From positions 201,351 through 265,350 of the forward strand of contig JANSYM010000003.1 in assembly GCA_024742355.1 (NCBI GenBank): DNA of 64,000 nucleotides, written 5' to 3'. Origin of the DNA: Hyphomonadaceae bacterium (GTDB taxonomy: Bacteria > Pseudomonadota > Alphaproteobacteria > Caulobacterales > Hyphomonadaceae). Under the pieces are notes generated by a model. That model was given only the letters and a program-made list of their open reading frames with translations. It had not been told where the DNA came from and did no database searches. The translations under genes were made by a program, and so were the position numbers. Of this stretch, positions 49,382-55,004 are shown in pieces. Each line of letters starts with the position of its first letter. Within the stretch, counting starts at the first letter, position 1.

Positions 49382-50380
49382 ATGCGACCTATCCTCCCAA
49401 TGCTCGTTTTAGCAGCAGGCCTGACCCTGACCGCGTGCCAGCCGGATGCGGGAGAGTTTGATCCCCCGGTGAGCGGCGATGCGAACCTGGTGGAGCAAGT
49501 AGATTCTAATGATGCGATTGGCTCCGAAGCGGATCGTGTTCTCTCGGTTGGCCCGCTCCCCGCCTTCTTCGATTGTGTCCGCGACAGCGGCGGCATGTTG
49601 ATCGCGTCGCATCGCGGCGGACCGGCGCCCGGCTATCCGGAAAATGCGATCGAATCCATGCAATACGGGCTCGATCAGGGCATTCTCGTGCACGAAATCG
49701 ATGTCGCAGAGAGCCGGGATGGTGTCCTGTTCCTGATGCACGACCGCACACTCGGGCGCACCACGACCGGTGATGGCTATGTCGCTGACATGGATTGGGA
49801 GACGATCCAAAGCCTCAACCTGAAAGACAATGAGGGCGCGATCACCGCCTTCACCGCGCCGAAGCTCAGCGATGTCCTGCTCTGGGCGAAACGGACCGGG
49901 GCAATTGTCGAACTCGACAAGAAAGAGACGACCAGTTTCCGCAACATCATTTCGCACGTGCGCGCCGCGGGGGCGGAGCAGAACACGATCCTGATCACCT
50001 ATAATGATGACCAGGCCAAAGAAGTGGCGCGCCTGGCGCCGGACCTGATGATGACGGCCGGCGTCAATAGCCGCGACCATCAGCAGGACCTGGTGGCCGC
50101 CGGCGTGAACTTTGACCATGTCATCGCCTGGATGGGGATCAGCAATCCCAATCCGCGCGCGTTCGAGGCGGTCGGTCGTCGCGGTGTCGAGACGGCATTC
50201 GGAACCCTCGGCCGCGCTGGTGAGCGCCTGGATGACCAATATTGGGCCGATGGCGATGGCAGCGAGTTTCAGGCCCTGGCAGATGGTGGCCTGACCATGC
50301 TGGCCACCGATACGCCGTACCGTGTTGCAGCGGCGCTTGAGGTCGACGATCTCGCTCTGTCCGCCTGCGCCGAGCGCTAA
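49382..50380 (+). CDS. Glycerophosphodiester phosphodiesterase, lipoprotein
   Basis: A 332-residue GDPD. The lipoprotein signal ends at LTLTAC (Cys 19), so it is probably anchored in the outer or inner membrane facing the periplasm. Catalytic motifs: ASHRGG (H77, R78), GYPEN (E87), HEIDVAESRDG (E105, D107) and FLMHD (H120). It hydrolyses glycerophosphodiesters to glycerol-3-phosphate and an alcohol. The stop overlaps the convergent gene by four bases (CTAA). Confidence 0.93.
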   Translation: MRPILPMLVLAAGLTLTACQPDAGEFDPPVSGDANLVEQVDSNDAIGSEADRVLSVGPLPAFFDCVRDSGGMLIASHRGGPAPGYPENAIESMQYGLDQGILVHEIDVAESRDGVLFLMHDRTLGRTTTGDGYVADMDWETIQSLNLKDNEGAITAFTAPKLSDVLLWAKRTGAIVELDKKETTSFRNIISHVRAAGAEQNTILITYNDDQAKEVARLAPDLMMTAGVNSRDHQQDLVAAGVNFDHVIAWMGISNPNPRAFEAVGRRGVETAFGTLGRAGERLDDQYWADGDGSEFQALADGGLTMLATDTPYRVAAALEVDDLALSACAER

Positions 50381-51537
50381 AGCACGAAGCGCGCCCGTTC
50401 ATTCGAGCTGATAAACTCGACCATTTCATCGTAGGACGCGCGCTCCAGCAGGGAAATTGCGGTCATGCGCTTGGCCTGGGTCTTGGCCGCATCGAGGGCC
50501 TGATCAGCATGGTTGATCGCTGTCGCATAGAATTGCATGCGCCGGGTCTCGCGCTGCGGTCGCAGGCCTTCCAGCATCGCGCGGACGCCGACGGCCAGGA
50601 TCGCAAATGCAATCGCCAGCGCGCTCAGCACCGATGTGCTGTCTTCAAACGGGCCCCAGACCGTACCGCCGAGGGCGATGAAATTGGCGATGAAGGCAAA
50701 GACCACGAGCAGGTAGCTCAAATTGCCGAGAATGTGCAGCTGCTTGGACGGCGATGACCAGAACTTGCCTTCCGATGACAGGACATAATTGGTGTACTGA
50801 ATCTGCCCGCGCATCCGCGTTTCCTTATAAGCGCGGTGGACTTCGTCCAGATGTGCCTGATGCGCCTTGTCCGGCTTCATCGCCGCCTTTCTGGCCCAGG
50901 CCTCATCGATCCAGAACGCGGATTCAGATTTCGGATCGGCAATGCTCTGGCCTGAATGCGCCGCGGCGGAGGTTTGCGTATACTTGGTGTATTCGCTGGA
51001 AATCTGATCGACAAACCTCCGCTTGAAACGCTGGAAACTGAGATCCCGCTCGTCCAGCCAGGCGGCTTTTGCGTCAGGAGAATCTGCAACAGCCGCGATT
51101 TCAACCGCGTGCGCCGCAAAATACTGCGCGTGCCATTGGCGCAGGCGTTCATTGATCAGCCGCTTCATCAGCCAGTCGCGTTTCACCTTGCCGAAGCCGA
51201 GCCCGATATTGCCGAAGACGAGCGCAAGAATGCCGAAACAGGCGCCGGCAATGGCGAGATAGTGCAATATCGGGGCATGATCTCGCTCGGCAGGCCAGAT
51301 GTCTCTGACGATCACGTCGAAAGGGAAGGCGAGCAGGGAGAGTGTTGCGAAGACGAGGGCGGCGCAGCCGATCCATCGCGAGCGACGCTTGGCTTGCACA
51401 GCCAGCCGGTCGACGCGCATAAATTCTTCCCTCAGTTCAGGATGGTCGAGCGCGAAGAAGACGTTTGGATAGCTCCGCTCCGCCAGTGCGCGATCTTCTT
51501 CTGACAATAGAAGTTCGTCATTGAAGCGAAATGTCAT
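50377..51537 (-). CDS. Four-helix membrane protein with two 2-TM hairpins (SLATT/DUF4231-like)
   Basis: A 386-residue protein. Membrane segments are about 54-76, 90-113, 268-289 and 301-323, giving two hairpins, each followed by amphipathic, Trp/Arg-rich helices (NERLRQWHAQYF, LEGLRPQRETRRMQFY). This is the layout of SLATT/DUF4231 predicted pore-forming effectors in nucleotide-signalling conflict systems, but here duplicated. I do not see a sure family match. It is divergent from the TIR gene with a 213-base shared promoter region. It may be the effector responding to a TIR-made signal; this is inference. Confidence 0.55.
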   Translation of the reverse strand: MTFRFNDELLLSEEDRALAERSYPNVFFALDHPELREEFMRVDRLAVQAKRRSRWIGCAALVFATLSLLAFPFDVIVRDIWPAERDHAPILHYLAIAGACFGILALVFGNIGLGFGKVKRDWLMKRLINERLRQWHAQYFAAHAVEIAAVADSPDAKAAWLDERDLSFQRFKRRFVDQISSEYTKYTQTSAAAHSGQSIADPKSESAFWIDEAWARKAAMKPDKAHQAHLDEVHRAYKETRMRGQIQYTNYVLSSEGKFWSSPSKQLHILGNLSYLLVVFAFIANFIALGGTVWGPFEDSTSVLSALAIAFAILAVGVRAMLEGLRPQRETRRMQFYATAINHADQALDAAKTQAKRMTAISLLERASYDEMVEFISSNERARFVL

Positions 51538-51750
51538 GCGCCCGTCCCTGGCCAGTCTGCCTGGGGGCAAGAAACACGTTCGCTTCGCAACTGGCAAGAA
51601 GGTTTCGCCCTTGCAGGCTGAAATGAAACGACTTTTCAGAACGCCCAAAAAGCAGGCAAGCGCCAAGTTCCTCTTTGGATTGCTCCGATTTTATGCGATG
51701 GCTGGGAACAAGGTCGCATTAACTAAAAAACATAAGAGAGACCGGGGGAC

Positions 51751-53280
51751 ATGGCGCATATTTTCTTATCCTATAGCAGGGCGGACCGACCGACTGCGCA
51801 AATCATAGCCGAAGCGCTGGAGGCCGAGGGCTTTTCCGTCTGGTGGGACAAGGTGCTCAGAGCCGGACAGACCTATGATGAAGTCACCGAAAACATGTTG
51901 CGGGATTCCGCTGTCGTCGTCGTCTTGTGGTCGCAGACATCAGTGAAATCCAAATGGGTGCGCGCCGAGGCAACGCTCGGACAGCGCAGCTGCGAGATGG
52001 TCCCGGCGATGATAGAGGATGCCGATCGTCCGATCATGTTCGAACTGACGCAGACGGCTGATCTCATCGGCTGGGCTGGCGATCGCAATGAGGCCCGCTG
52101 GGCCGACTTCGTCGCCGACATCAAACGCTCTCTCGAAAAGCACGACGCCGCAGCTGCGGCGCCAGAGGCCCCCGCCACCAGCGCAGCGCCTGCCGCGCAA
52201 GGCGACGCGACGATCGAGACGGTGTTCTGGACATCGATCAAGGATGGTGACGACCCAGCTGATTTCGAGGCCTATCTAAAGCGCTATCCGGACGGTCATT
52301 ATGCGGCCCTCGCCAGAAACCGCCTCGCAGCGCTGGGCGCGCCCGCCGCCGCCGCTGGTGCTGCACCTGAGCCCGCGCCAAAGCCGGCCGCGGCTGCGCC
52401 AGCGCCCGATCCGGCGCCGATAGCGCCGCCTGTTACGGATACGCCGGAAAAGAAAAAGTCCTCCAATCCGCTGCCAATGCTGATCGGTGCTGTCGCCGTG
52501 CTCGGCGTCGGCGGCTGGTTTGGGATGCAAGCGCTCAACCCTTCGGATCCTGATACTGAAACCGAGGCAGAGACCGAAGCTTCGACGCCGCCTCCGCCGA
52601 GCTGTGATGTCTGTCCAGACATGGTCGAATTGGAGGGTGGGACGTTCACCATGGGCTCGCCCTCGTCTGAAGCCAACCGGTCCGGCAATGAAGGGCCACA
52701 GCACGAGGTCACACTGCGACCGTTTGCGATCAGCGCCACCGAAATCACCCGCGCCCAATGGCAGCTCTGCGTCGATGCTGGCGGGTGTAGCGGTACGCAG
52801 GGCGGGGAAAGCAGCGCGCCCGTGACCCGCGTGAGCTATGATGACGCCACCGCATATGCAGACTGGCTGTCCGGGCAGGGCGACCGGAGATATCGCCTGC
52901 CAAGCGAAGCTCAATGGGAGTTTGTCGCGCGCGGCGGGACCGATACGCCTTATTGGTGGGGATCGGGCTTTCCTGGCCCAGGCGTCGCCGCCGGGTCCAT
53001 GGCCGATACAGCTGATCTGCCCGTCAATCCGTACGGGGTTTCAGGCATGTTGGGCAATGTCCGCGAGTGGGTCGCTGACTGCTATGTCAACAATTACTCG
53101 GATGCGCCTGCCAATGGCAGCGTTGTGCGGAGCGCTGGATGCGACCGCTTCGTTGTGCGCGGCGGATCCTGGCGCCTAGGCGCCGCAGAGCATCGCGCTG
53201 CTAATCGCGCACGGTTCAGCCGCTCGATCCGGGATCGCTCCGTTGGCTTCCGGGTCGTCGCGGAATCCGCCGCAGACTAG
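51751..53280 (+). CDS. Transmembrane TIR protein with periplasmic FGE-like domain
   Basis: A 509-residue protein. Residues 1-130 form a TIR domain (AHIFLSYSRADRP; catalytic-type glutamate E73 in KWVRAEATLG). A helical segment at 153-196 (ADFEAYLKRYPDGHYAALARNRL), a Pro/Ala linker, a KKK-flanked membrane helix at about 240-262, and a C-terminal FGE/SUMF1-like domain (290-505; GGTFTMGSP, RLPSEAQWEF, GNVREW, RGGSWRL) follow. Positive-inside residues put TIR in the cytoplasm and the FGE-like part in the periplasm. The canonical FGE cysteines are missing, so it may sense or bind instead of oxidising. GGGGGA precedes the ATG. Confidence 0.9.
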   Translation: MAHIFLSYSRADRPTAQIIAEALEAEGFSVWWDKVLRAGQTYDEVTENMLRDSAVVVVLWSQTSVKSKWVRAEATLGQRSCEMVPAMIEDADRPIMFELTQTADLIGWAGDRNEARWADFVADIKRSLEKHDAAAAAPEAPATSAAPAAQGDATIETVFWTSIKDGDDPADFEAYLKRYPDGHYAALARNRLAALGAPAAAAGAAPEPAPKPAAAAPAPDPAPIAPPVTDTPEKKKSSNPLPMLIGAVAVLGVGGWFGMQALNPSDPDTETEAETEASTPPPPSCDVCPDMVELEGGTFTMGSPSSEANRSGNEGPQHEVTLRPFAISATEITRAQWQLCVDAGGCSGTQGGESSAPVTRVSYDDATAYADWLSGQGDRRYRLPSEAQWEFVARGGTDTPYWWGSGFPGPGVAAGSMADTADLPVNPYGVSGMLGNVREWVADCYVNNYSDAPANGSVVRSAGCDRFVVRGGSWRLGAAEHRAANRARFSRSIRDRSVGFRVVAESAAD

Positions 53281-55004
53281 TTGGTCACGACCTCGATCAC
53301 AACGCGTCGGTTGAGTTGCTCGGCCACGCCATCTTCGGTGAGCACGGCGAGTTCGTCCTCGCCATACCCAACCGTCGTGATCAGGCGCCCATCGAGCCCA
53401 TTGTTGACGAACCAGTCGCGCACAAAATTGGCAAAGCGAATGGTTTGAATACGGCTTTCCGCGTTTGGCCCGGCAGTGTCATTATAGGCGCTGATGGTCA
53501 TCGATAGGATGGTTTCATCGCTCTCCAAAACCTCCCGCAGCACGGCGTCGTATGGGGTGAGGTCGGGCGAGTCATAATCGGAGACATAGAACCGCGTCAC
53601 GATTGGTTGCGATTGCGGTTCTGCCATCGGCTCTATGTCGGGCTCGGCCGCGGCAGGTGGCGGTGGCGGCGGGGCAAGGCTGCGATCGCGGCGCGGCGGC
53701 GCCTCGTCGGTGACGTCAACGGCACGGCCGCCGGCCGGGAAGGCGGATCGGTGCAATGTGCAGGCTTCGGTGTCGGGCGCGATCGACGCGTTAACGCGGT
53801 AATATTGATCGCCGTCCGGCAGGCCGCCATAGCGGGCGATTTCCAGGGCGCGTTCTTGTGGCCCGGTCTCGCCAATGGTGCACATCATATCCCACAGAAT
53901 GGTCGGGTTGTCGGAATAGTAATTGTGGCCGACGCCGAAGAGCTGCGTGGTCACAGCGGTCGCATCGATCGTCTGATAATTCTGAGCGTCACGAATATAC
54001 GGCTTGTCGGTGTCGGTATCGCCCAGCCGTTTCGCCTGGTTGAGAATGTTCGAGGCCAGCAGGGCGCGATCTGTGTCCGATGTGTAGATGGTGACATTGG
54101 CGTCGAGATTGTCGAACACACCGTTTGCAGCAGCGAAGACTTCACGTTCCACATCGGCGGCGACCAGCAGGATACGAAACTCCAGATCGTCGCGATCATG
54201 GCGGATCAGATAGTCCCGAGCGTAGTCTTCTAGCGCCTTGGTCAGGACGCGATTGCCCATGGAATGCGCGATGATATTGATGCGATCGACATCGAGGTCT
54301 TCGGTGATCAGATCGAGAAATTCCTCAAGATAAGGCGCGGAGGCGAGCGAGCGATCACGATCACCGCGATAATCGTCGATGGAGACCTCGCCAACCGACG
54401 GCCAGCTATAGAGGACCGGCACGCCAACATCGTAGATATCATTGCGCGACAAGTCGTTCGACAGCTGAGCCGCGCGCACCAGGGCTTCGTCGAACTTCAC
54501 ATTGAAGCCGTGCACGAACAGCAGGACCGCATTGGAGCCTTCATAATAGATGGCGTCCTGAAGTGTGGCGGTGAACTGCTGGCGGCCACTCGTCGTGATC
54601 CGCGTCAGGAAGACATATTCGGCGAGTTTGTTGGCATCGCTTGGCGCCTGGCCTTGCACATGCGGTGTCTCTCCGCGTTCGCGCGAGCCGCCATCGTCGA
54701 CAAGTTTCGGGAGCCAGACATCGGCGCGGCCGAGCCGGAGCGCTTCGCCATTTTCGCCTGTGCCTTCGAAGACATCCGCCGACTCCGACGCCAGGGTGGC
54801 ATCGCCGGTCTCGAGTTTGCGATTGGTACCGTACCAGACGCGGACACAGTCGACCTTTCGATTGAGGTCGCCTTGCGCGATCAGCTGATCGCAGTCTGTG
54901 CCGAAATCCGGATGCCGAATGACGAGAGGCCGATTGAGCCACCACCAGGCGGCCGCACCGCCAACGCCAACAATCACCACGATGCCGAGAAACCACTTAA
55001 GCAC
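53277..55004 (-). CDS. DUF900 alpha/beta hydrolase fused to OmpA-like domain
   Basis: A 575-residue protein. An N-terminal membrane anchor (LGIVVIVGVGGAAAWWW, about 6-22) leads a DUF900 alpha/beta hydrolase (VLLFVHGFNVKFDEAL, nucleophile S248 in AHSMGNR), a proline-rich linker at about 445-465, then an OmpA-type peptidoglycan-binding domain (about 475-575, TISAYNDTAGPNAESRIQTIRFANFV, VGYGEDE and NRRVVIEV). It should sit in the periplasm tethered to membrane and wall. It is convergent with the TIR gene, overlapping by four bases (CTAG). Confidence 0.9.
   Translation of the reverse strand: MLKWFLGIVVIVGVGGAAAWWWLNRPLVIRHPDFGTDCDQLIAQGDLNRKVDCVRVWYGTNRKLETGDATLASESADVFEGTGENGEALRLGRADVWLPKLVDDGGSRERGETPHVQGQAPSDANKLAEYVFLTRITTSGRQQFTATLQDAIYYEGSNAVLLFVHGFNVKFDEALVRAAQLSNDLSRNDIYDVGVPVLYSWPSVGEVSIDDYRGDRDRSLASAPYLEEFLDLITEDLDVDRINIIAHSMGNRVLTKALEDYARDYLIRHDRDDLEFRILLVAADVEREVFAAANGVFDNLDANVTIYTSDTDRALLASNILNQAKRLGDTDTDKPYIRDAQNYQTIDATAVTTQLFGVGHNYYSDNPTILWDMMCTIGETGPQERALEIARYGGLPDGDQYYRVNASIAPDTEACTLHRSAFPAGGRAVDVTDEAPPRRDRSLAPPPPPPAAAEPDIEPMAEPQSQPIVTRFYVSDYDSPDLTPYDAVLREVLESDETILSMTISAYNDTAGPNAESRIQTIRFANFVRDWFVNNGLDGRLITTVGYGEDELAVLTEDGVAEQLNRRVVIEVVTN

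Follow-up and report, generated by a model that had tools for sequence, protein, structure and literature searches.

Does a divergent pair of genes in a 64,000-nucleotide stretch of Hyphomonadaceae DNA (contig JANSYM010000003.1, positions 201,351 to 265,350, assembly GCA_024742355.1; hereafter the window) encode a receptor together with its membrane effector? A preliminary description of the window had proposed a membrane-anchored TIR signalling or defence system here, and the three abutting genes that it named, P0001, P0002 and P0003, are present at the coordinates it gave. P0001 (50377..51537, minus strand) encodes 386 residues, a four-helix SLATT/DUF4231-like membrane protein and predicted effector, and P0002 (51751..53280, plus strand) encodes a 509-residue receptor made of a TIR domain, a membrane helix and an FGE-like domain. 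With somewhat more confidence than doubt, we take these two divergent genes to be a receptor-effector module in which an exported sensor would act, through a TIR signal or through contact, on a SLATT pore, probably in defence.

We first consider whether the two genes belong together. Within the genus, orthologs of both were found in 8 of 29 genomes, and the other 21 had no P0001 match and no P0002 ortholog. P0002 orthologs occur in exactly the eight genomes with strong P0001 matches (Fisher p 2.3e-7, relatedness not corrected for); in three of these genomes the TIR and FGE parts were matched separately. All eight pairs lie at the same chromosomal place, which is an empty site in genome G001, where GDPD is directly followed by DUF900 and neither gene of the pair is found. 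Across the family, 33 SLATT-like genes were found in 32 of 105 genomes; a gene for a TIR-transmembrane (TIR-TM) protein lies next to each of the 12 strong P0001 homologs (E 2e-160 or better) and next to 5 of the 21 distant ones (the second copy in G003, and those of G360, G368, G369 and G380). Among named genomes, a count that has 12 loci in common with that of the family, a TIR gene is adjacent at 22 of 34 loci, which span Hyphomonadaceae, Parvularculaceae, Acidobacteriota and Planctomycetota. Outside the genus the figure is 16 of 28. The pair is conserved well beyond close relatives, one of the points that the preliminary description had set as a test of its proposal. On the SLATT tree, the label "divergent TIR-TM-FGE" needs 2 changes compared with 12.9 in shuffles. 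Across 19 loci, the distances between the TIR proteins rise with those between the SLATT proteins (r 0.92, p 1e-4; 0.87 within the genus and 0.83 outside), a correlation computed without a control gene and to which shared genome descent can add. These data indicate that the divergent P0001 and P0002 form one module, with a pairing far above chance.

The arrangement of the pair and the type of receptor both vary. The genes are divergent in the window and convergent at loci L032 and L036; at L031 they share a strand and overlap by 4 bases, at L051 they also share a strand, and at L179, L180 and L183 the receptor precedes the SLATT gene on the same strand. TIR-TM-FGE is the commonest partner type, found in the window and at most loci, and related SLATT genes stand directly beside other kinds of TIR receptor: TIR-TM-WD40 at L031, L051 and L032, TIR with TPR at L046 and L021, and a multi-helix TIR protein at L036. 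The partners at these six loci have a helix near residues 165-239, after the TIR domain, with a hydropathy of at least 1.9; that of L046 has a second helix candidate in the same range, and that of L036 has two more near its end. The SLATT protein of L031 is 50% identical to P0001, yet its partner is TIR-TM-WD40. It groups in a clade with 11 SLATT proteins that have TIR-TM-FGE partners (support 100/98, order inside the clade not fixed), and two WD40-partnered SLATT proteins branch just below that clade with weaker support (89/74 and 85/68). Because the inner placement of L031 is not fixed and the lower branches are less well supported, the tree does not give the direction of the change between FGE and WD40 partners. 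The TIR domain of L031 matches the TIR-FGE type weakly, so its receptor gene differs as a whole, beyond the sensor. Separately, two TIR-rich islands, L138 (G028:C1:176000-193000) and L139-L140 (G003:C2:78000-110000), encode TIR proteins combined with WD40, FGE, Sel1 repeats, caspase or nSTAND1. In several of these proteins the TIR domain is followed by a hydrophobic helix, and the islands together hold a varied set of TIR receptors within a single genus.

The receptor has the composition that the preliminary description had read in it. Pfam places TIR_2 (E 7.1e-20) at residues 4-110 of P0002 (51760..52080, plus strand) and FGE-sulfatase (E 5.7e-47) at residues 288-503 (52612..53259, plus strand), and one hydrophobic helix lies between them, near residues 241-259 (52471..52527, plus strand). 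In 16 of the 16 TIR-FGE rows with the helix region present, the TIR side of the helix is more positive than the far side, a comparison that covers the TIR-FGE rows and not the WD40 or TPR partners. Because of this positive charge excess, the TIR domain is predicted to be cytoplasmic and the FGE/PvdO-like domain to be exported. Cys285, 288, 340, 346, 444 and 464, which sit in or just before the FGE domain and are invariant in 12 rows, are what an exported domain would be expected to show. Glu73, in the stretch W-V-R-A-E, corresponds to the W-x3-E glutamate of TIR domains that cleave nicotinamide adenine dinucleotide (NAD); it is kept in 31 of 31 aligned TIR rows, among which six repeat the same genomes and that of L048 is not SLATT-adjacent, while the L036 row failed to align. 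Among the solved TIR structures nearest to P0002 by profile is a chain with the deposited name NAD(+) hydrolase AbTIR. For the FGE domain, the closest solved structure is PvdO, by sequence and by model. Near its C terminus, where FGE 6muj has two cysteines at the copper site when aligned to the P0002 domain, an RGG/KGG stretch without cysteine was found in 12 of 12 rows. Because this copper-binding pair is missing in all 12, the domain is probably one for binding; it may nevertheless have a PvdO-like oxidase role.

To what family does the partner of this receptor belong? P0001 has two pairs of hydrophobic helices, 59-77/90-108 and 276-294/303-321, and hydropathy, charge and model helices predict a first membrane hairpin at residues 59-108 (51214..51363, minus strand) and a second at residues 276-321 (50575..50712, minus strand). 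The preliminary description had called it a double two-transmembrane protein, which describes its shape and is no evidence of a duplication, because in a profile comparison the halves do not align as a repeat (hhalign probability 4%). The AlphaFold model is all-helical (mean predicted local distance difference test score, pLDDT, 87.5), and the predicted succession of a membrane hairpin and a helical cytoplasmic part is that of the SLATT type. After the first hairpin lies a conserved W-L-x2-R-L-x2-E-R-x-R-Q-x3-Q stretch (residues 122-138; 51124..51174, minus strand), in which all 28 alignment rows keep W122, E130, R131, R133 and Q138. The SLATT likeness that had been suggested appears in the profile matches of homologs but not in those of P0001, whose sole Pfam match is DUF2207_C, below threshold. 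In two sets of homologs DUF4231 matches 8 of 37 and 9 of 28, mostly weakly (best E 3.8e-7), fewer than does DUF2207_C (10 of 37 and 11 of 28); SLATT_1, 3, 4 and 5 each match one or two homologs, and the UniRef name of the Hyphomonas johnsonii homolog begins "SMODS and SLOG-associating 2TM effector doma". The linkage of SLATT proteins to nucleotide-signal enzymes has its counterpart in the TIR gene adjacent at the 22 of 34 loci. The strongest argument comes from G360, G368 and G369, in which a receptor 54-55% identical to P0002 lies directly upstream, on the same strand, of a 337-residue protein. In the two copies compared, those of L179 and L183, 125-140 residues align to P0001 at 27% (125 in L179), and the L179 copy, the only one scanned with Pfam, scores 33.4 bits for DUF4231 against a curated cut-off of 24.7. 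On these grounds together, we treat P0001 as SLATT-like, a probable assignment by homology.

How would such a module work? P0002 would span the inner membrane, the TIR domain facing the cytoplasm and the FGE/PvdO-like domain the outside, where the latter may bind a ligand of the envelope or of an invader and thereby cluster the TIR domains. These would then cleave NAD by means of Glu73 to give an ADP-ribose-type signal or, alternatively, contact P0001 directly within the membrane. P0001 would open a pore in the inner membrane, and growth would stop or the cell would die. The purpose would most likely be defence against phage or other attackers. The data establish the domains, the pairing, the joint inheritance and the kept catalytic glutamate, and the topology is predicted from sequence; the ligand, the signal, the pore and the defence role are what we infer for the pair.

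Toll-like receptors have an external sensor with leucine-rich repeats, one membrane helix and a cytoplasmic TIR domain. As predicted from helix, charge and cysteines, P0002 would share the external sensor, the single helix and the cytoplasmic TIR domain, and prediction to this extent supports the Toll-like topology of the preliminary description; the order of the parts, however, is reversed, with the TIR domain N-terminal and the sensor C-terminal, and there are no leucine-rich repeats. P0002 would resemble Toll in working, not in membership. In Thoeris, a second protein responds to a nucleotide signal made by the TIR protein, and the ThsA effector (SIR2-SLOG or TM-macro) stands beside the TIR. 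The TIR domain of P0002, in contrast, is membrane-anchored, the window gives weak matches of the ThsB type (hidden Markov models), and P0001 gave no match in PADLOC at E 1 and no SIR2, SLOG or macro domain in Pfam. To our knowledge, bacterial TIR defence systems detect infection inside the cell. If the proposed mechanism is true, no other bacterial arrangement would come as close to Toll signalling as a membrane TIR with an exported sensor and a membrane effector, an alarm would be possible before phage DNA entry or upon envelope damage, and SLATT proteins would gain a defined upstream receptor in a two-gene system. Our wider suggestion, which we hold tentatively and with considerable doubt, is a bacterial Toll-like class of membrane TIR proteins with varied exported sensors (FGE, WD40, TPR), in which every receptor would control its own four-helix SLATT channel, either by touching it or through a very local signal within the same membrane. 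Danger outside the cytoplasm would then lead to membrane permeabilisation with no diffusible alarm through the cell.

The pairing of TIR with SLATT is itself already known. In firmicute phages a TIR gene adjoins a gene for a two-transmembrane (2TM) SLATT protein, predicted to be under the control of ADP-ribose derivatives (PMC9503650). There, as here, the two genes are neighbours; those are phage genes, and the portions of that paper available to us mention no exported sensor, whereas here the pair is chromosomal, the TIR protein has a membrane helix and a sensor predicted to be exported, and the SLATT protein has four helices. In conflict systems centred on a GAP1-N1 GTPase, a 2TM SLATT gene accompanies effectors of the TIR or PNPase type (PMC7159879, available portions), but Pfam matched no GTPase in the nine proteins of the window that were scanned around the pair. 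In DRT10 phage defence the SLATT protein is essential and is proposed to be the membrane effector (PMC12632851, a preprint, available portions); there it works with a reverse transcriptase and a noncoding RNA, and the genome of the window (18 contigs) gave 0 matches to the reverse transcriptase profile PF00078. The FGE fold (FGS) has been proposed as a lectin-like sensor of invaders, linked to TIR, in multicellular bacteria (PMC8195603). In the accessible part of that work these sensors are intracellular and often accompanied by NTPases and diversity-generating retroelements (DGRs), while P0002 is predicted to be exported and has no NTPase, in a genome without a reverse transcriptase match. 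The statement that no described system has this arrangement therefore has to be narrowed. TIR genes beside 2TM SLATT genes appear in PMC9503650 and PMC7159879; a membrane-anchored TIR receptor that has an exported sensor and is coupled with a four-helix SLATT protein was not found described in the literature consulted, in so far as its text was available.

Several results weigh against a defence module of this kind. For P0001 itself, Pfam gave neither a SLATT nor a DUF4231 match at E 0.1, and the PDB offered no usable fold match. No TIR neighbour was found for 16 of the 21 distant family SLATT-like genes (by profiles in fetched stretches, some reaching the contig end); in 10 of these 16, one or two neighbours were scanned with Pfam and proved to be enzymes in nine cases and a histidine kinase in one. 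No adjacent TIR gene was found at 12 of the 34 named-genome loci (L033, L038, L042, L044, L047, L048, L049, L050, L052, L053, L054 and L055), although L048 has a TIR gene about 5 kb from the SLATT-like gene and L049 is at a contig end. Conversely, TIR-TM-FGE proteins have no SLATT neighbour at L137, L138 and L140, the first of which lies in G013, a genome without any SLATT match; SLATT therefore cannot be the sole output of such receptors. Shared descent may account for part of the distance correlation. Finally, the window is no defence island: the neighbours of the pair are housekeeping genes, with MscS, AMP-ligase and GDPD on one flank and genes for a Na/H exchanger with TrkA_N, a member of the glyoxalase superfamily and a ClpA-like protein on the other, and searches of plasmids, phages and viral contigs gave no match.

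These last two observations would fit a pair that monitors the envelope for stress or wall damage and tunes ion flow, a housekeeping sensor beside homologs of MscS, GDPD and the Na/H exchanger with TrkA_N. We consider this rather unlikely, since presence is patchy (8 of 29 genus genomes), relatives pair with other kinds of TIR receptor, and TIR genes tend to be more numerous in genomes that carry the pair (3-16 TIR_2 matches per genome vs 0-9 in the other 21). Less probable still is that the TIR protein alone drains NAD and that the SLATT-like protein is its immunity protein or regulator. Conservation of the catalytic glutamate and the TIR-TM-FGE proteins that lack a SLATT neighbour are consistent with this explanation; however, the available part of PMC7159879 calls SLATT proteins predicted pore-forming effectors, DRT10 defence needs its SLATT protein (PMC12632851, likewise seen in part), and 16 of the 33 family SLATT-like genes have no TIR neighbour that was found, which an immunity protein would not need. 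That the FGE domain is a working periplasmic PvdO-like oxidase, with the TIR domain as a scaffold and SLATT adjacency without joint function, is very improbable despite PvdO being the closest solved structure, since WD40 or TPR replaces FGE in TIR partners of SLATT relatives, P0001 and P0002 are co-inherited and the FGE copper cysteines are absent in 12 of 12 rows, which itself does not speak to PvdO-like activity.

The third gene, P0003 (53277..55004, minus strand; DUF900 E 6.4e-42, OmpA match below threshold), had been put forward as a further part of the system and is dropped here. It occurs near full length and with at least 50% identity in 19 of 29 genus genomes, 12 of which lack the pair, and G028 carries the pair without it. 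The DUF900-OmpA gene is a mere neighbour of the pair.

Between P0001, whose start codon at 51537 fits the start of many homologs in the alignment, and P0002 lies a divergent intergenic region of 213 bases (51538..51750), which is presumed to hold both promoters. An alignment of eight genomes has conserved islands in it that include GGCAAGAAGGTTTCG-like stretches, a possible shared operator.

SLATT-like genes were also seen in other contexts. In Albimonas (L050:8444-11125) a prokaryotic STING-domain gene, a small gene and a SLATT-like gene follow on one strand; at L042:5594-11092 genes for an nSTAND1 NTPase, a TPR-DUF2610 protein and a SLATT-like protein stand in a row, the last with one internal stop in its frame; and in Rhodoblastus (L048:3306-11095) a TIR gene, a NACHT-FGE gene and a symporter gene lie upstream of the SLATT-like gene. 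A DUF6709 gene, possibly a further partner, adjoins the SLATT-like gene in a Methylocystaceae genome (L033:8925-9638) and a Hyphomicrobiaceae genome (L038:11093-11794). In seven family genomes (L174-L178, L182 and L184) the SLATT-like gene encodes 333-375 residues and a TIR neighbour was not found; at L174, L175 and L182, the three scanned, the convergent neighbours are zinc-type alcohol dehydrogenases.

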